Shown: piece after piece, positions 7,866 through 24,655 of the stretch
Layout: every line of letters starts with the position of its first letter
Numbering within the stretch: the stretch's first letter is position 1
NCBI GenBank assembly: GCA_020072565.1
Contig: JAIQGI010000010.1
Location: 1-64,000 of the forward strand
Direction of reading: 5' to 3'
DNA from: Terriglobia bacterium
GTDB lineage: Bacteria > Acidobacteriota > UBA6911
Length of the DNA stretch: 64,000 nt
Position numbers and translations under genes: made by a program
The notes under the pieces: generated by a model
Told to the model about the DNA's origin: nothing
The model's database searches: none
What the model saw: only the letters and a program-made list of their open reading frames with translations

Positions 7866-8834
7866 ATGAACCGACGCACACTGCTGAAGCTAGGTCTTGC
7901 CGCGACCGCCGGCGCCTCCAGTACTCCTCTAGGGGCAGGAGAATCCCAAATTCCGAAGGAAAACGTCTTGCCTTCCCCGGGCCACGTGGGGGTCCTGGTG
8001 GATACCACGCTCTGCATCGGGTGCCGCAAGTGCGAGGAGGCCTGCAACCGCCGGAACCACCTCCCCCGCACCGCCGAGTCCTTCTCGGACAGAGACGTGC
8101 TCCGCTCCTTCCGCCGGCCTAACGAAACCGCGTTCACGGTAGTGAATCAGTTCCCGGGAAGCCCTTCCCCGGATCAGGCAGGTGTTCCTCAGACCTGTGT
8201 CAAGGCCCAGTGCATGCACTGCCTCTTCCCCTCCTGCGTTTCCGCCTGCATTGTGGGCGCCCTGACCAAGTCCGCCGACGGGGCCGTGATCTATAATCCC
8301 ACAATCTGCATCGGGTGCCGATACTGCCAGGTCGCCTGTCCGTTCGAAATCCCGGCCTACGAGTTCAACGAGCCCCTCAAGCCGCGCGTGCGCAAGTGCG
8401 AGTTCTGCACCGACAGGGCCAATGGCACCGGAGCCAACCCGGCATGCGCCGCCTCGTGCCCCACGGAGGCTCTGGTATTCGGCCGCCGGGCGGAGTTGGT
8501 GGTTATGGCCAGGGAGCGCCTGAAGCGGCGCCCGGACCGCTATGTCAATCATGTTTATGGCGAGACGGAAGTGGGTGGGACTTCCTGGATTTACCTGACC
8601 GGCCGGCCCGTTGAGGAAATCGGGCTGCTGAACCTCCCGGCAATCCCTCCCCCGCAGCGCACCGAAGCGATCCAGCACGGGATCTTCACATACGGCGCGA
8701 TCCCGATCGCGTTTTACGGCCTCCTGGCCGGGATCATGTGGTACAACCGGCGGAAGCATCCGGAGGAAGAGCCGGACCCAGGGAGGACCCAAAACAGGCC
8801 CGCCGCTCATGGTCCTGGGGGAGGTGTAAAATGA
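7866..8834 (+). CDS. HybA-like four-cluster ferredoxin, Tat-exported, membrane-tethered
   Basis: A 322-residue electron-transfer subunit. The start is the ATG at 7866, preceded by GGAGAGGA, and the product begins with a twin-arginine signal (NRRTLLKLGLAATAGA); an upstream in-frame start at 7743 would bury it. Four Cys groups for [4Fe-4S] clusters are visible: CIGCRKCEEACN, CMHCLFPSCVSAC, CIGCRYCQVACP, and CEFC with a later CAASCP. A hydrophobic segment near residues 275-295 (AIPIAFYGLLAGIMWY) anchors the C-terminus, as in HybA and related subunits. Its stop overlaps the next gene's ATG (ATGA at 8831-8834), so the two are translationally coupled. It probably passes electrons between the NrfD-like quinone module and the multiheme domains. 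The terminal partner is unknown, and no molybdoenzyme or hydrogenase subunit is adjacent. Confidence 0.88.
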   Translation: MNRRTLLKLGLAATAGASSTPLGAGESQIPKENVLPSPGHVGVLVDTTLCIGCRKCEEACNRRNHLPRTAESFSDRDVLRSFRRPNETAFTVVNQFPGSPSPDQAGVPQTCVKAQCMHCLFPSCVSACIVGALTKSADGAVIYNPTICIGCRYCQVACPFEIPAYEFNEPLKPRVRKCEFCTDRANGTGANPACAASCPTEALVFGRRAELVVMARERLKRRPDRYVNHVYGETEVGGTSWIYLTGRPVEEIGLLNLPAIPPPQRTEAIQHGIFTYGAIPIAFYGLLAGIMWYNRRKHPEEEPDPGRTQNRPAAHGPGGGVK

Positions 8835-11800
8835 CCCCCGCAATCCACAACGATCATCCGCATCGGGTCATAAAACCCTTCTTCACTTTCGGCACCCTGA
8901 CCCTTCTCATCTTCATGGGCGTCGGCTTCTCGTTCGGCATCACACGCATGCTCCTGGGGCTGGGCACGGTGACGAATCTGGACAATCACAATCCCTGGGG
9001 CATCTGGATCTCCTTCGACGTGGCCTGCGGCGTAGCTCTGGCAGCCGGCGGATTCACCACGGCGGCACTGGTGGATATTTTCGGCAGGAGAAAGTACAAG
9101 GCTCTTCTCCGCCCGGCCATCCTCACGGCGTTTCTGGGCTACCTCTGGGTCGCCATCGCGTTGAGCTTTGACCTGGGACGCTACTGGAACATCTGGCGCC
9201 CGATTTTCAATTGGCAGGGCAACTCGGTTCTTTTCGAAGTAGGCATGTGTGTGACTGCCTACCTCATAGTTCTGAGCATAGAGATGAGCCCATCCATCCT
9301 GGAGGGGCTGAAAGCCAGGATCGATCAGGGGGAATGGGGGGCCACCCTCCTCGGTCGCGTGGAGAAACCAATCCTCGCGCTTTACACCGGAATCCGGATC
9401 GTTTTGCCTCTGTTCATCGTGGCCGGCGTGGTGCTCTCCTTTATGCACCAGTCTTCGCTGGGCACGCTGATGCTCATCGCCCCCTCCAAGCTGAGTGCGC
9501 TGTGGGATACTCCCATCCTCCCCATCCTGTTTCTTCTGTCGGCGATGATGGTGGGATTCCCGATGGTGATCCTGGAGTCCATATATGCAAACATCAGTTT
9601 CGGCCGCAGCCCCGAGATGGAGTTGCTCACTCCCATGGCGCGAATCATCCCCTGGTTCCTTGGGACCTATGGTGCGGTGAAAATCGGGGACCTCATCGTC
9701 CGGCACAGTCAGCTCAATTTCCTCGAGCATCCTGCAGCCACGACTTCGTTGTTCATTGAGATCCTGTTGGGCATCATCGCCCCATTCCTGCTTTTCCTGA
9801 ACAAGGCGGTGCGCCGGTCCATGGGATGGCTTTTCTTCACCGTCTCTCTGATCATCTTCGGCGTGGTTCTGAACCGCATCAACGTGTTCCTCGTGGGTTA
9901 CAACCCTCCATACGCCACCAAAGCCTATTTCCCGTCGATCGGGGAGATCGCGATGACCGTTGCCATCGTCTCCAGCATCCTGTTCTGTTACCGGATGTTT
10001 GTGACGTTCTTCCCTATCCTGCCCGGATACGTGCCGACCACTGAGGTCCAGCTCGCCCGGATGCGTGAAGAGCGCGAGCGGACCGTGAATCCCTTCTGGA
10101 CCTGGGTGATCCGCGGCACAGGGATCGCATGCCTCCTGGCTTTCATCGCGCTGTACAGCCTGGTGCACATCGAGGCCATCCAGGCCTCTGTCAGGACCGT
10201 CCAGGAGGTCTTGCGCATCACTACACAACAGCCTGTTCCTCAGGCGCCCACGGGGTCAACCGGGCCGGCCTACCCGCAGCGTCCTGCAGCTTATAAAAAC
10301 TTCTATCTGCTGGACAGTCAGGTGTTGAAAGCCAGATCGGACGATTACGAGCCGGTGGGCTTCTCCCACCGGATCCACGACGAGTTGGTGGGTGGCGACT
10401 GCGGGGTATGCCATCACCGCTATGCGTCGACCGAGGGTGACCGCGTGGGGCAAGACATCAAGGAAATGCACGCAGCCATGGACATCAAGATGGGTGGCCC
10501 CTGTTCGGCTTGCCATGACGATATGGCCCCGAACCCTCCCCAGAGCTGCAACCGCTGTCACGGCCTGTCCAACGAGCCGGACGACCCTTCCCGCATCGGC
10601 CTGAAAGGCGCTTACCACCGCCAGTGCATCGGCTGCCACGAGCGCCAACTCAAGCCGGCGTCAGCGCCTACGGAATGCGCCTCCTGCCATCACCCCTGGA
10701 CGCCCGACCATTCCATTCTGGCTTCTTTCAAAGGCAAGCCCAGTCCGCAGGAAGTGACCCGGACTTGCTTGAGCTGTCACGCGAAGGTGGGACAGGACCT
10801 GCTGAAAACTGCCCACTGGAACTGGAAGGGATACTCCCCGACGCTGGCAGGCTACGAACACCGGACCGACATCAGCCTCACGTTGATGGTGAACAACTAC
10901 TGCGTCGCCATCGGCTCCAACGTCCAGCAGTGCATGTCCTGCCACATCGGTTACGGCGGGGTGGACAAGCGTTTCGACTTTACCGATCCGGCCAATATCG
11001 ATTGCCTGGTCTGTCACGACACGACCGGCACTTACCGCAAGGATCCGCTCAAAGGAGGCTTCCCGGACCCATCATTGGATCTGATCGCGATCGCGCAAAA
11101 GGTGGGACGCCCCTCCCGGCAGACCTGCGGTTCCTGCCATTTTGAAAGCGGCGGGGCCACCAACGCCAAGCATGGCGACCTCGAGCCGGCCCTGGCGACG
11201 CCAAACACCAGTTCTGACCTGCACATGGGATCGCTGAACATGCGCTGCCAGGATTGCCATACTACCAGCGAACACAGGATCTCCGGGATGTCCTTGAGCG
11301 CTCCCGCAGTGGAGGGGCGCGTAGCCTGTGAAAAGTGCCATGGCCTTACCCCCCACGGCGTGGCAGGCGTGCTCAGCCGCCATCTGGACGACCACATCCG
11401 GGCCGTCGCCTGTGAAACATGCCACATTCCCTCCTTTGCTCACGACTCGCCGACTCTCCTGCGACGCGACTATTCGAAGGCGGGACAAAACCGTCCCGAA
11501 AGCCGGGACCGATATGGAATGCCGGAGTACGATAAGAAGTTCGGCGCTCTGATCTGGGGGAAGGACCTGTTGCCCACATACCTCTGGTACGACGGGACTC
11601 GCAATGCCTCCCTCGTCGGGGATAAGATCGACGCGTCGGCAACCGTGGTCCTCAATGCTCCCGTAGGAGAGAAACGCAGTCCGGCGGCACGCATCTTCCC
11701 CTTCAAGGTGCATACAGCGGTCCAGCCTTACGACACGGAAGACAATGTCCTGGCGATGCCCAATTTCCTCGAGGACTATTGGGTCCACTTCGACTGGGCC

Positions 11801-12130
11801 AAAGCCATCGCCGACGGGATGAAGCAGGTAGGTCTCCCATACTCGGGGAAGTACGGCTTCGTGGAAACCAAAATGTACTCCTCCATTCATCACGAGGTGG
11901 TCCCCGCCAAAAAGGCCCTGGGCTGCTCCGATTGCCACAGTCCGGAGGCTACCACCTGCACGCGCTGCCATAAGAACGCCCAGGGGATGACACTCCCCGC
12001 GCACCGTCTCGCAGTCTATCCGGAAGTGAAGAACCGGATCGATTTCAAGGCCCTGGGATATCCCGGCGACCCAGCCTTCGTGGGCGGGCGCTTCTATATC
12101 ACCCTTGGCCGCGGTTCCCCACCCAAGTAA
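8831..12130 (+). CDS. NrfD/HybB membrane module fused to a 14-heme cytochrome c
   Basis: A 1099-residue fusion. The ATG at 8831 overlaps the previous stop and has GGGGAGGTG upstream. Residues of about 15-430 are an NrfD/HybB-type protein with roughly ten membrane helices; a last helix lies near 435-455 (TGIACLLAFIALYSLVHIEA). From residue 524 to 1047 there are 14 CXXCH motifs. The first five (CGVCH to CASCH) have cytochrome-c3-like spacing. From residue 646 the pattern (CLSCH, AHWNWKG, CMSCHIGYG, FDF, CLVCHDTTGTY, CGSCH, CQDCH, CEKCH, CETCH, GCSDCH) resembles the octaheme tetrathionate reductase family, plus an extra CTRCH. NrfD proteins oxidise or reduce membrane quinones; the octaheme family reduces tetrathionate or nitrogen oxyanions. 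I infer a quinol-linked periplasmic oxidoreductase with unknown substrate. The layout recalls Hmc, but there the cytochrome is a separate chain. Confidence 0.85.
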   Translation: MTPAIHNDHPHRVIKPFFTFGTLTLLIFMGVGFSFGITRMLLGLGTVTNLDNHNPWGIWISFDVACGVALAAGGFTTAALVDIFGRRKYKALLRPAILTAFLGYLWVAIALSFDLGRYWNIWRPIFNWQGNSVLFEVGMCVTAYLIVLSIEMSPSILEGLKARIDQGEWGATLLGRVEKPILALYTGIRIVLPLFIVAGVVLSFMHQSSLGTLMLIAPSKLSALWDTPILPILFLLSAMMVGFPMVILESIYANISFGRSPEMELLTPMARIIPWFLGTYGAVKIGDLIVRHSQLNFLEHPAATTSLFIEILLGIIAPFLLFLNKAVRRSMGWLFFTVSLIIFGVVLNRINVFLVGYNPPYATKAYFPSIGEIAMTVAIVSSILFCYRMFVTFFPILPGYVPTTEVQLARMREERERTVNPFWTWVIRGTGIACLLAFIALYSLVHIEAIQASVRTVQEVLRITTQQPVPQAPTGSTGPAYPQRPAAYKNFYLLDSQVLKARSDDYEPVGFSHRIHDELVGGDCGVCHHRYASTEGDRVGQDIKEMHAAMDIKMGGPCSACHDDMAPNPPQSCNRCHGLSNEPDDPSRIGLKGAYHRQCIGCHERQLKPASAPTECASCHHPWTPDHSILASFKGKPSPQEVTRTCLSCHAKVGQDLLKTAHWNWKGYSPTLAGYEHRTDISLTLMVNNYCVAIGSNVQQCMSCHIGYGGVDKRFDFTDPANIDCLVCHDTTGTYRKDPLKGGFPDPSLDLIAIAQKVGRPSRQTCGSCHFESGGATNAKHGDLEPALATPNTSSDLHMGSLNMRCQDCHTTSEHRISGMSLSAPAVEGRVACEKCHGLTPHGVAGVLSRHLDDHIRAVACETCHIPSFAHDSPTLLRRDYSKAGQNRPESRDRYGMPEYDKKFGALIWGKDLLPTYLWYDGTRNASLVGDKIDASATVVLNAPVGEKRSPAARIFPFKVHTAVQPYDTEDNVLAMPNFLEDYWVHFDWAKAIADGMKQVGLPYSGKYGFVETKMYSSIHHEVVPAKKALGCSDCHSPEATTCTRCHKNAQGMTLPAHRLAVYPEVKNRIDFKALGYPGDPAFVGGRFYITLGRGSPPK

Positions 12131-20836: not shown

Positions 20837-20872
20837 GGCGGCCACTCACAAATGGGGGCCGGAGGGGTAGGG

Positions 20873-23233
20873 GTGCGCATCGGGCTGGACCGAAGGTCAT
20901 TTTTGAAACTCTCGGGGGCCGCTGCCGGAAGCGTGGCAGCCACCGAGGTGTTCGGCCGCCTGGCACTCGATCAAATCATCCCCGATGAGATCAAGGAAGA
21001 CGGCTCACGGATCATCTCCGTTGTCTGCAACAACAACTGCGGCGGGCGGTGTCAGCTCAAGGCGCACATCCAGAACGGCGTCGTGGTTCGGATCAGTACG
21101 GATGAGTCGCCCGATTCCGACAGCAAGCCGCAGCTCCGCGCTTGTCTCAAAGGCAGGGCCATGAGGAACCGTCTCTACCACCCGGACCGCCTCAAATACC
21201 CGATGAAACGAGTGGGCCGAAGAGGCGAAGGAAAATTCCAGCGGATTACATGGGATCAAGCAGTCGAGATCATCGCCGTCAATCTTAAAGGAATTCTGGA
21301 CCGTCATGGGCCTTCGTCCGTTTACATCCAATACGGCACGGGCGACTGTGGAGCCATCACAGGCGTTGCCGGGGCGCGACGCCTGATGAACCTGCTCGGC
21401 GGCTACCTCGGATACTACAACAGTTACAGCTCGGCGTGCCTCCGATACACTGCGCCTTTCGTCACCGGCTACCGGGATACGAGTTCCTATCAGACCCTGC
21501 TTCACTCCAAGCTGATCGTTCTCAACGGCTTCAATCCGGCGGAGACCGTTTTTGAGACAAATTCCAATTACTACCTGGCCAAAGCCAGGGAGGCCGGGGC
21601 AAGAATCGTTGTCATTGATCCGCGCCTCACGGAGACGGCAGCGACGTTCGCAGACGAATGGCTGCCGCTGAAACCGACCACGGACGCCGCACTATTCATC
21701 GCCATGGCTCACGTGATCATTGCCGAAAATCTGCTCGATCGGACTTTTCTCGACAGGTACTGCATCGGCTTCGACGAACAACACATGCCCTCGGGCGTCC
21801 CCGAAGGCCAATCATTCAAGAGTTACGTGCTCGGATTCGTCGATCAAACGCCGAAGACTCCGGAATGGGCTGCCCCCATCACCGGCATCGACGCCCATAC
21901 GATTCGGAATCTGGCAAGGGAGTACGCAACGGCCAAGCCCGCACAGTTGCTGCAGGGATTGGGGCCGCAGCGCCATGCCTGCGGCGAGCAGTCCGTTCGT
22001 GCGGGAATTGTCCTGGCGTGCATGACGGGCAACCTCGGCGTTCTCGGCGGTGGTTGGGGAGGAGGTGAGGGAGGCAGAGTATTCGGTCTCGGCGTCGGAG
22101 AACTGCCCACCGGTACCAATGGCGTTAAAGCCAAAATCCCGGTGTTTCTATGGACCGATGCCGTCGTGCGCGGCACGGAAATGACGGCGGAAGACGGTGT
22201 AACGGGAGGCCCGTTGCTCAGCAACATAAAGTTCATCTTCAATCTGGCCAGCAACACGCTCGTCAACCAGCACGCCGACATCAATCGGACGATCAGGATT
22301 CTCCAGGACGAGAACCTCGTCGAGTGCATCGTCGTGTCCGATCATTTCATGACTCCCAGCGCCAGGTTTGCCGATGTCCTCCTGCCGGCCGACAATTCGC
22401 TGGAGCGCAGCGATATCGGTTTCCCCTGGTCGGGCGAGAAATATATCGTCTTCGGCAACAGGGTTGTCGAGCCCCCGTTTGAGTGCAAACATGATTACTG
22501 GTGGCTCAGCCGGGTCGCAGAAAAACTGGGCGTCGGGGAAAAGTTCCAGCAAGGCAAAACCCAGGAAGACTGGCTGAAGCAGATCATCGACGATGCGAGA
22601 AAAACAAATCCGTCGTTCCCCGGCTACGACGAACTGAAAAAGACAGGGCTCTATCGCGAACCGCCGCAGGCATATGTCGCCTTTGAGAAGGAGATCAAGG
22701 ATCCTGACAGGAATCCTTTCAGGACGCCCTCGGGAAAAATCGAGATCTTTTCGAAGACGCTCTACGACATGGCCAGGCCCGACATTCCGGGCGTTCCCAA
22801 GTATATTCCCGCATGGGAGGGGCCGGAAGATTCCCTGATACGGAAGTTTCCTCTGCAGTGCATCGGCCCTCATTACAAGAGGCGGACACATTCCACTTTT
22901 GACGAGAATTCCTGGATGGAAGAGGCAGATCCCCAGGTGATGTGGATCAGCCCTCAGGACGCGGGCACTCGGGGAATAGCGGACGGCGCAAAGGTCAAAG
23001 TATTCAATGACCGCGGGGCTTTGCTGATCAGGGCCCATGTGACCAGGCGCGTCCGTCCGGGCGTCATCTCCATCCCGCAAGGCGCCTGGTACACGCCGGA
23101 CAAGAACGGCGTGTGCCGGAGGGGCTGCATCAACGTCCTCACGAGTCAGAGACCGACTCCTCTCGCTCACGGCAATGCCCAGCACACGATTCTGGTGGAA
23201 GTTCAAATGATTGAGGGAGGGTCGGGTGGTTAA
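20873..23233 (+). CDS. dmsA: DmsA-type molybdopterin oxidoreductase, Tat-exported catalytic subunit
   Basis: A 786-residue catalytic subunit of the DMSO reductase family. I chose the GTG at 20873: GGAGG lies 7 nt upstream and the twin-arginine signal (DRRSFLKLSGAAAG) then sits at residues 6-19. An ATG at 20852 is possible but has no clear ribosome site. Cys52, Cys56, Cys60 and Cys91 (CNNNCGGRC and RACLKG) bind a [4Fe-4S] cluster. NSYSSAC (183-189) aligns with GDYSSAQ in E. coli DmsA as I recall it, so a serine ligand to molybdenum (about Ser186) is likely. It should reduce DMSO, another S- or N-oxide, or a related acceptor with electrons from the next two subunits. It overlaps the dmsB-like gene by 8 nt. 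No DmsD-type chaperone gene is in the window. Confidence 0.85.
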   Translation: MRIGLDRRSFLKLSGAAAGSVAATEVFGRLALDQIIPDEIKEDGSRIISVVCNNNCGGRCQLKAHIQNGVVVRISTDESPDSDSKPQLRACLKGRAMRNRLYHPDRLKYPMKRVGRRGEGKFQRITWDQAVEIIAVNLKGILDRHGPSSVYIQYGTGDCGAITGVAGARRLMNLLGGYLGYYNSYSSACLRYTAPFVTGYRDTSSYQTLLHSKLIVLNGFNPAETVFETNSNYYLAKAREAGARIVVIDPRLTETAATFADEWLPLKPTTDAALFIAMAHVIIAENLLDRTFLDRYCIGFDEQHMPSGVPEGQSFKSYVLGFVDQTPKTPEWAAPITGIDAHTIRNLAREYATAKPAQLLQGLGPQRHACGEQSVRAGIVLACMTGNLGVLGGGWGGGEGGRVFGLGVGELPTGTNGVKAKIPVFLWTDAVVRGTEMTAEDGVTGGPLLSNIKFIFNLASNTLVNQHADINRTIRILQDENLVECIVVSDHFMTPSARFADVLLPADNSLERSDIGFPWSGEKYIVFGNRVVEPPFECKHDYWWLSRVAEKLGVGEKFQQGKTQEDWLKQIIDDARKTNPSFPGYDELKKTGLYREPPQAYVAFEKEIKDPDRNPFRTPSGKIEIFSKTLYDMARPDIPGVPKYIPAWEGPEDSLIRKFPLQCIGPHYKRRTHSTFDENSWMEEADPQVMWISPQDAGTRGIADGAKVKVFNDRGALLIRAHVTRRVRPGVISIPQGAWYTPDKNGVCRRGCINVLTSQRPTPLAHGNAQHTILVEVQMIEGGSGG

Positions 23234-23786
23234 CAGTCAGATCGCATTTTTCGTGGATGCCACCCAATGCATCAATTGCAGGACGTGTGAAATCGCCTGC
23301 AAGGATTTCAATGATTCTGCAGTCGGCCGGAGAATCCGCAGGGTGCGTACCTTCGAGGGCGGGGAGTTTCCAAAGATATTCGCCTACAACATCTCCATGT
23401 CCTGCAATCATTGCGAGGACCCGATCTGTGTCAAAATCTGCCCGGCCGGGGCTTATGCGAAGCGGGCGAGCGACGGAATTGTCGTGCACGATCCCGAGCG
23501 CTGCATCGGCTGCCGCTATTGCACCTGGCTGTGCCCTTACGGCGCACCCCAGTATGATGCCAACGAGGGCAGGGTCCGGAAATGCAACCTGTGCATCGAC
23601 CAGCTTGAACGAGGAAAGAGTCCTGTATGCGTGGCGGCATGTCCCATGCGTGCCATCGAAATCGGCCGCCTCGCCGAGATTGCCGCACGGCCGGGTGTGG
23701 CCGTCACAATTCGAAATCTCCCCTCCCCTGATCTGACGCGGCCTGCTTGCAGGTACAAGGTGAGGGCGGAGGCGTTAGGAGCGTGA
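23226..23786 (+). CDS. dmsB: DmsB-type iron-sulfur subunit with four [4Fe-4S] clusters
   Basis: A 186-residue electron-transfer subunit. The GTG at 23226 is preceded by GAGGGAGG; the TTG at 23211 is less likely. Four Cys groups are visible: CINCRTCEIAC, CNHCEDPICVKIC, CIGCRYCTWLC, and CNLC with CVAAC. There is no signal peptide, as expected if it is exported together with the Tat-signal-bearing catalytic subunit. The start overlaps the upstream stop, and the next gene begins 11 nt after its stop, so the three are one operon. It relays electrons from the membrane subunit to the molybdenum subunit. Confidence 0.88.
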   Translation: MVNSQIAFFVDATQCINCRTCEIACKDFNDSAVGRRIRRVRTFEGGEFPKIFAYNISMSCNHCEDPICVKICPAGAYAKRASDGIVVHDPERCIGCRYCTWLCPYGAPQYDANEGRVRKCNLCIDQLERGKSPVCVAACPMRAIEIGRLAEIAARPGVAVTIRNLPSPDLTRPACRYKVRAEALGA

Positions 23787-23797
23787 GGGGCGAGAGC

Positions 23798-24655
23798 ATG
23801 ACGGAATGGCCGTTGGTTGTTTTTACGATCGCGATCCAGCTTGCCGGCGGGCTCGTGTTGGCTGCAACCCTGTTCGACCGGACCGCTCCCCAGTCCGACG
23901 CCGTCATGCGCCCGTTAGGAATGGCGATATTCCCGCTGGCCATGCTGGGTCTGCTGGCATCTCTGCTTCACTTGGGCCGCCCCCTCGCCGCCTGGAAGTC
24001 GCTCCTCAACCTGGGCAGTTCGAGACTCAGCCTCGAGGTCCTCTTGACGCTTTTGTTCGTCCTGGGGGCCCTCATCTACAGCCATGCCTGGTGGGCACAC
24101 AAAGCCGAGCATCGGTTCGCCCTCGGTATTGTGACCAGTCTCCTCGCCCTGGCGGCGGTCGCTTCCAGCTCGGTGATTTATCTTTTCCCGACGCAGCCGG
24201 CCTGGAACTCCGGATGGGTTCCTGTTTCTTTTCTCGGGACGGCATTGCTCCTCGGGGGATGCGCGGCGTCTGTTCTAGTGAACCCTCAGGGCCCCAGGTC
24301 TCTGCTTCGATGCTTTCTGGCCGGAGGGATCACCGGGAGTCTCCTGCTGTTCCTGTCCGCGATGTGGATGATCGCGAATCTGTCCCGCACGTCCCTGGAC
24401 GATTTTGGGTCAGCTCGGCTTCAAGGAGCGTTGCACCTTGTCACTTCCCGGTATCCCCTCTGGCTCGGGCTTCACCTGTTGCTCGCGGGGGTGGTCCCCA
24501 TTGCCTTCGCCTCCCTGCTCTGGAACGGAAGGAACTATGCCGAATCTTCAGGATCTTCCTGGATTCGAGTTCTCTTCTTCCTCGCAGCATTTCTGGGAGC
24601 AGTCATCGGCCGGCGGCTCATGTATCTGCTCGGCGTTTCCCTCCCCCAGTTCTGA
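23798..24655 (+). CDS. dmsC: DmsC-type membrane anchor subunit
   Basis: A 285-residue integral membrane protein with about eight hydrophobic helices, matching DmsC size and topology. The ATG at 23798 is the first that leads directly into a helix (TEWPLVVFTIAIQLAGGLVL); the open frame from 23747 overlaps the upstream gene. Family-like features are LLHLGRPLAAWKSLLNLGSSRLSLE near residues 55-80 and RRLMYLLGV at the end. It should oxidise menaquinol and pass electrons to the iron-sulfur subunit. It is the last gene of the operon. Confidence 0.82.
   Translation: MTEWPLVVFTIAIQLAGGLVLAATLFDRTAPQSDAVMRPLGMAIFPLAMLGLLASLLHLGRPLAAWKSLLNLGSSRLSLEVLLTLLFVLGALIYSHAWWAHKAEHRFALGIVTSLLALAAVASSSVIYLFPTQPAWNSGWVPVSFLGTALLLGGCAASVLVNPQGPRSLLRCFLAGGITGSLLLFLSAMWMIANLSRTSLDDFGSARLQGALHLVTSRYPLWLGLHLLLAGVVPIAFASLLWNGRNYAESSGSSWIRVLFFLAAFLGAVIGRRLMYLLGVSLPQF

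Follow-up and report, generated by a model that had tools for sequence, protein, structure and literature searches.

An NrfD-type quinone module and an octaheme tetrathionate reductase domain encoded as one gene: a putative two-gene menaquinol:S-S reductase

Introduction

The octaheme tetrathionate reductase (OTR) of Shewanella oneidensis receives its electrons from the tetraheme cytochrome STC in a contact with a Kd of 1.6 mM, and heme II is its catalytic heme (PMC4484225). Free periplasmic location is a trait of the Shewanella enzyme and not part of the family model, TIGR04315. The physiological electron supply and the substrate of OTRs have so far been poorly settled; tetrathionate raises the transcript level of stand-alone otr genes of acidobacteria 36-fold (PMC8528874). 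On the membrane side, the closest described proteins are the HybB-like members of the NrfD group, which have ten helices, one more at each end than the eight-helix type; replacement of R89, Y99, E148 and H184 of HybB itself reduces H2 oxidation (PMC8076601). Our reading of that work would place both ends of HybB-like subunits on the N-side.

The locus considered here lies in the window, the whole 64,000-nucleotide stretch of DNA that was analysed, which comes from a soil bacterium. It consists of a ferredoxin gene and a downstream gene in which a HybB-like module, a five-heme relay and an OTR domain follow one another (Table 1).

Table 1. Coordinates of features in the window and of comparison loci elsewhere
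Feature	Position	Strand	Basis
HybA/HmcB-like periplasmic ferredoxin, 322 aa	7866..8834	+	NCBIfam, Fer4_11, HybA alignment
GGAGG ribosome site and ATGA stop/start overlap of the ferredoxin and fusion genes	8820..8834	+	sequence
Fusion gene, NrfD/HybB + 5 hemes + OTR + 1 heme	8831..12130	+	ORF, Pfam, NCBIfam, PDB, CXXCH count, relatives
HybB/HmcC-type NrfD quinone module, residues 15-398, ten helices	8873..10024	+	PF03916, NF008133, Foldseek
Eleventh membrane helix, residues 421-455	10091..10195	+	hydropathy; AlphaFold helix 421-462
Pentaheme c3/Hmc-like relay, CXXCH at 524, 558, 573, 599, 616	10358..10699	+	PF14522, PF02085, NF045713, 2e84
OTR domain, residues 637-1039	10739..11947	+	TIGR04315, 1SP3, Foldseek
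Cys codon TGC, C691 = OTR Cys64	10901..10903	+	alignment with 1SP3; UGA in many Desulfobacterota OTRs
CXXCH of heme II, residues 701-705	10931..10945	+	second CXXCH of OTR domain
Lys codon, K780 = OTR Lys153, unusual heme ligand	11168..11170	+	alignment with 1SP3
14th CXXCH, residues 1043-1047, outside the OTR domain	11957..11971	+	CXXCH count
DmsB-like ferredoxin	23211-23783	+	part of window DMSO/selenate-type operon
Hydrophobic DmsC-like frame	23747-24655	+	part of window DMSO/selenate-type operon
NrfD + six-CXXCH fusion	L010:1444-3414	-	
NrfD + six-CXXCH fusion	L014:1444-3441	-	
NrfD + six-CXXCH fusion	L228, L231		
Other loci with TGA at the Cys64 codon	L111, L112, L114, L122, L124, L125, L136, L138, L139, L144, L145, L148, L150, L151, L154, L156-L158, L160, L215, L216, L219-L222		

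A single gene and its ferredoxin partner

The first-pass annotation had described an NrfD module and a multiheme cytochrome in one gene, and the gene is indeed a single intact, stop-free frame of 1099 codons for amino acids. Its product contains 14 CXXCH motifs, five at residues 524-620 and nine at 646-1047; together with two full-length family matches in the same frame, these establish that the architecture is not due to chance. Each of the proposed domains (NrfD PF03916, cytochrome c3 and TIGR04315) matches. The same junction between membrane and cytochrome parts recurs in relatives from independent assemblies, which excludes a frame or assembly error at that place. The NrfD-OTR fusion is a genuine single gene.

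Fused relatives, with 44-82% identity, occur in metagenome-assembled genomes labelled as Acidobacteriota, Candidatus Aminicenantes, Planctomycetota, Deltaproteobacteria and Desulfobacterota, and those of Acidobacteriota include the single-contig chromosome CP070717. Of the 123 different OTR domains collected, 38 rows carry the NrfD fusion, and once two duplicates are removed about 36 distinct fusions are left. Nine Desulfobacterota loci have instead a version of three adjacent genes, comprising a HybA-like ferredoxin, an NrfD protein and a c3-OTR that has 13 hemes and a separate N-terminal helix; relatives are thus sometimes split, but by no means always. In a quick, unrooted OTR tree, the three-gene loci are sister to the Desulfobacterota fusions (SH-aLRT 99). 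Fusion or fission has therefore occurred at least twice, unless the split is secondary. The titles, abstracts and passages of the literature that were consulted yielded no account of an NrfD-octaheme or NrfD-tetrathionate reductase fusion. A different NrfD-cytochrome fusion of about 660 amino acids, with a six-CXXCH part, no OTR and an adjoining HybA-like ferredoxin, was also encountered (Table 1).

The ferredoxin has an RR signal, a C-terminal membrane helix as in HybA, and 17 cysteines, which are enough for four [4Fe-4S] clusters. It aligns with E. coli HybA over its whole length and matches Fer4_11; its NCBIfam scores lie below the cutoffs for both HmcB (NF045715; 308 bits, cutoff 420) and HybA (255 bits, cutoff 263). 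The suggestion that this HybA-like protein is translationally coupled to the fusion through ATGA agrees with the overlap of the two genes at 8831-8834, six bases downstream of GGAGG. Where the contig extends far enough, nearly every fused locus has a HybA-like ferredoxin gene immediately upstream of the fusion. Frames of 1503 (L023) and 1421 (L029) amino acids were considered as cases in which the ferredoxin, too, had been joined into the fusion; they were rejected because the ferredoxin sits in a different, overlapping frame.

The membrane module and the direction of electron flow

PF03916 matches residues 47-357 with 63.3 bits (gathering cutoff 25.8). The best full-length NCBIfam match of the membrane part is to HybB (NF008133, residues 15-398), at 316 bits and thus below the equivalog cutoff of 450; the HmcC equivalog (NF045714) is likewise below its cutoff (276 bits, 550 required). 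Identity to E. coli HybB is 29%, and no hydrogenase was found among the scanned neighbouring genes of the window fusion. In a Foldseek search, the AlphaFold model of the fusion matches ActC of alternative complex III (6btm_C, E=2e-11) and also ActF, both of which are NrfD-like. The residues of the quinone site, D63, D114, S132 and E136 (HybB D58, D109, S129 and E133), are conserved without exception in the 28 aligned fusions, as are those of the proton path, R94, Y104, E151 and H206 (HybB R89, Y99, E148 and H184). HybB S105 and S190 are not retained in the window protein. The genome has futalosine-type menaquinone genes (MqnA/D-type); menA was not found in it.

These relationships bear on the direction of the reaction. 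The nearest relatives, HybAB and HmcBC, work in hydrogen-oxidising, quinone-reducing systems; by analogy with Hyd-2, Qrc and Hmc, the OTR part might oxidise a sulfur compound, or be supplied with electrons by cytochromes of the periplasm, with quinone being reduced in the NrfD part. The potential of the tetrathionate/thiosulfate couple, +198 mV (PMC8528874), lies well above that of menaquinone, the quinone indicated by the futalosine genes, and for menaquinone to oxidise thiosulfate to tetrathionate would therefore be uphill. We consider flow in this reverse direction distinctly improbable.

An eleventh helix and the possibility of cleavage

The estimate of about ten NrfD/HybB helices holds for the HybB-like part, but the membrane helices of the window protein come to eleven, with an additional one at about residues 421-455 that leads to the cytochrome. 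The additional helix is found in all 28 of the aligned fusions. Because both HybB-like ends would lie on the N-side, it would place the C-terminus on the periplasmic side, the site of heme c attachment. The AlphaFold model (28 relatives in the alignment, pLDDT 62) has eleven long helices up to residue 462. Confidence in this model is moderate: in the c3 part pLDDT is mostly <40, too weak for heme distances, and the model as a whole is too weak for active-site geometry.

That the fusion is one chain stands at the level of the gene; for the protein the description needs a qualification that differs between lineages. In nine Desulfobacterota fusions the junction resembles a signal peptide (e.g. 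KKLSPVVLSVLAAGLFLALAGAPDTALAA/ETP), with [AVS]xA after the helix in eight of the nine and strict AxA in six. This resemblance, the separate N-terminal helix that three-gene relatives have at the position of the junction, and the precedent of the cytochrome b/c1 precursor of Bradyrhizobium are what would be expected if signal peptidase or another protease cut the product between NrfD and cytochrome, the fusion then merely setting the stoichiometry of synthesis. On the other hand, AxA is present in only two of 19 acidobacterial fusions and is absent from P0001; the window protein and most acidobacterial fusions have a long helix with no AxA-type cleavage site. Judged from these sequences, an internal signal peptide may lead to cleavage of the Desulfobacterota fusions, which is less likely for the window protein. 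As a general account of the family, cleavage is rather unlikely, and it is compatible with the quinol-linked reductase proposed below.

The pentaheme relay and the OTR domain

The five-CXXCH part had been called c3-like. This designation is supported by the Pfam c7/c3 match (PF14522/PF02085) at about residues 510-623 and by matches to the HmcA C-terminal domain (NF045713) and PDB 2e84 (E=1e-14). The nine-CXXCH part had been likened as a whole to OTR. It does contain an OTR domain, with a TIGR04315 score of 475 bits at residues 637-1039 (cutoff 375), but its composition is eight OTR hemes plus one extra (C1043); the CXXCH of the latter is nearly invariant across the fused proteins. The OTR domain matches PDB 1SP3 by sequence (E=1e-113) and by Foldseek (E=6e-32), and its eight CXXCH motifs are in register with those of 1SP3. 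The lysine-ligated heme that one would look for in an OTR has its counterpart in K780, which aligns with Lys153 of 1SP3; a lysine occupies this position in 116 of 118 OTR domains; L037 and L044 lack it. The CX15CH active-site motif of MccA-type enzymes is absent from the window protein, whose heme motifs are all CXXCH. Heme IV of the OTR domain in L042 and other Desulfobacterota fusions has a CX3CH motif (e.g. CGMNCH) in place of CXXCH.

Cysteine or selenocysteine at position 64

In the window protein (row L186), the codon for Cys64 is TGC, and it is hence not a selenoprotein. A survey of Desulfobacterota genomes found dozens of TIGR04315 genes with one TGA, and in every gene inspected that scores above the TIGR04315 cutoff the TGA is the Cys64 codon. 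Two Desulfobacterota fusions also have an in-frame TGA exactly at this codon (L047, 4979-4981; L048, 6619-6621); further loci are listed in Table 1. All 70 stand-alone OTRs have cysteine (46) or UGA (24) at position 64, as do 25 of the 38 fused rows. A hairpin with a stem of at least 6 bp lies 3' of the UGA in 21 of 23 Sec genes and at the corresponding place in none of 43 Cys genes; its stem has 6-10 pairs and its loop is mostly AGGU. The L047 and L048 fusions have only a weak hairpin, an interrupted stem with a GUC loop. Both of their genomes have tRNA-Sec; SelB is encoded in one and represented by only a contig-end fragment in the other. Many Desulfobacterota are thus predicted to make OTR as a selenoprotein, Sec having been gained or lost several times across the tree. 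A 2026 review lists a selenocysteine form of TIGR04315 as GenBank-annotated, with no motif or position (PMC13188914). No description of the position of the Sec, of the hairpin or of Sec in NrfD fusions was found in the literature consulted.

Exchange of cysteine for selenocysteine is typical of a redox-active nucleophile. The recurrence of UGA at precisely the Cys64 codon, with a SECIS-like hairpin, makes Cys64 the prime suspect as a catalytic residue, a role that it almost certainly has. The residue has been neglected until now, and its exchange for selenocysteine bears on whether OTRs are sulfur enzymes.

The fused lineage does not preserve this site uniformly. Cys/Sec64 is missing from 13 of the 38 fused rows, and in four of these (L005, L034, L037 and L038) both cysteines of heme II are replaced, with retention of the histidine; heme II may in these be a non-covalent heme, another cofactor or part of a dead active site. 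The reaction cannot, therefore, be the same in all fusions, and the family is functionally non-uniform. Such losses, along with that of Lys153 in L037 and L044, would be in keeping with an OTR part that had become an electron wire to other acceptors and ceased to be an enzyme. They are confined to some branches, however, and the window protein and its close relatives retain Cys64, heme II and Lys153; for the fused lineage as a whole, conversion to a wire is highly improbable.

Two observations concern selenocysteine elsewhere. Distant OTR-like cytochromes in genomes G300 and G409 (L229 and L230) share an in-frame TGA (TETY*APPNTVAGHNW and LHSY*APPNTVAGHNW), possibly another selenocysteine site. 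At the stand-alone Sec-OTR loci L211, L212 and L218, a family 5 solute-binding protein adjoins (shown for L211 and L218), as does a MetA-type outer-membrane protein at L211; the substrate of these Sec-OTRs might be an organic or peptide disulfide.

Gene neighbourhood and the nature of the substrate

In six Desulfobacterota fusions (L042, L043, L199, L200, L201 and L210) the operon continues with a molybdoenzyme resembling PhsA and a ferredoxin resembling TtrB/PsrB; HMM scans of three of the molybdoenzymes gave 534-551 of 694 bits. No membrane subunit accompanies this pair, which may share the fusion's NrfD. A sigma-54 activator adjoins many of these Desulfobacterota fusions. At the acidobacterial fused loci, that of the window included, no conserved neighbour was found besides the two genes themselves, which suggests a self-sufficient pair; the lack of conserved sulfur genes beside these loci speaks against a sulfur substrate. 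The window also contains a complete DMSO/selenate-type reductase operon (20852-24655, + strand), whose molybdoenzyme scores 945 bits to TIGR02166. This reductase (20852-23783) was rejected as a partner of the fusion, unrelated genes intervening.

The PhsA-like neighbours and the induction of acidobacterial otr by tetrathionate favour a sulfur substrate. The same electron path could instead end at nitrite or hydroxylamine, making the fusion a one-chain Nrf-like ammonifying or detoxifying enzyme: S. oneidensis OTR reduces both of these compounds as well as tetrathionate (PMC4484225), and the sequence quinol - FeS - pentaheme - catalytic multiheme is the NrfDCBA plan (PMC12285233). The genes that accompany the Desulfobacterota fusions, however, are PhsA-like and not nitrogen genes. 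Nor does chemistry with nitrite account readily for a cysteine or UGA at position 64 in every stand-alone OTR; we know of no such cysteine that is needed for nitrite chemistry in NrfA-type enzymes. A nitrogen substrate is accordingly judged unlikely, and sulfur is favoured on genome context and on the Cys/Sec residue, with quinol-linked reduction as the probable function.

A proposed path from quinol to substrate

The preferred reading, to which we assign a probability of roughly 0.6, is that the two genes encode a membrane-anchored menaquinol:S-S reductase of the tetrathionate type. Menaquinol would be oxidised in the HybB-like part, whose residues are conserved; the direction of flow is presumed. 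The HybA-like protein, on the periplasmic side, would receive the electrons in its four [4Fe-4S] clusters and hand them on through the tethered pentaheme relay to the OTR domain. By homology, the substrate would be reduced at the Lys-ligated heme II, near Cys691; sulfur oxyanions or other S-S compounds are the likeliest substrates, with tetrathionate first among them. Energy might be conserved through the HybB-like proton path. Through the eleventh helix, relay and catalytic unit would be built permanently into the quinol dehydrogenase, in contrast to the weak shuttle contacts in Shewanella, and the tethered relay would replace the contact of OTR with STC.

A broader proposal is more tentative: that the fusions constitute a separate and widespread class of all-in-one, proton-coupled menaquinol:S-S reductases in whose catalytic centre a Lys-ligated heme is paired with Cys/Sec, some lineages having derived forms with no covalent catalytic heme. 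If the preferred reading is true, two genes suffice to specify respiration all the way from quinol to the final electron acceptor, and a single small complex would allow the route quinol - FeS - heme relay - active site to be both solved and measured. Taken together, the fused loci and the three-gene loci tie OTR to a quinol dehydrogenase of the NrfD type; in Desulfobacterota they also tie it to a partner resembling thiosulfate reductase.

Comparison with known systems

With the OTR of S. oneidensis (1SP3, TIGR04315) the window protein shares eight CXXCH motifs and the equivalents of Lys153 and Cys64. The Shewanella enzyme is soluble, lies in the periplasm and obtains its electrons from CymA/STC, whereas the OTR of the window is the C-terminal part of an eleven-helix membrane quinol dehydrogenase and is accompanied by six further hemes. 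Stand-alone Desulfobacterota OTRs of the Sec type, and two NrfD fusions, differ from it in having UGA where the window protein has its Cys64 codon. HybA-HybB of E. coli hydrogenase-2 and HmcB-HmcC have in common with the locus the RR-signal ferredoxin with a C-terminal helix and the quinone and proton-path residues of a HybB-type NrfD; the locus differs from them in having no hydrogenase, in scores under the equivalog cutoffs, and in an NrfD extended by the eleventh helix and a cytochrome with 14 hemes. HmcA has a C-terminal c3 domain similar to the pentaheme relay, but it and the nine-heme cytochrome NhcA (of Hmc and Nhc) are separate soluble subunits with no OTR. The plan of NrfABCD and MccACD is the common one of an NrfD quinol dehydrogenase, a 4x[4Fe-4S] subunit and a multiheme catalyst, to which Nrf adds a pentaheme relay; in these systems the subunits are separate and the catalysts belong to other families (CXXCK in NrfA, CX15CH in MccA). 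By analogy, the best reading of the fusion is as an Nrf/Mcc-like quinol-linked multiheme reductase that appears to have collapsed into one chain around OTR.
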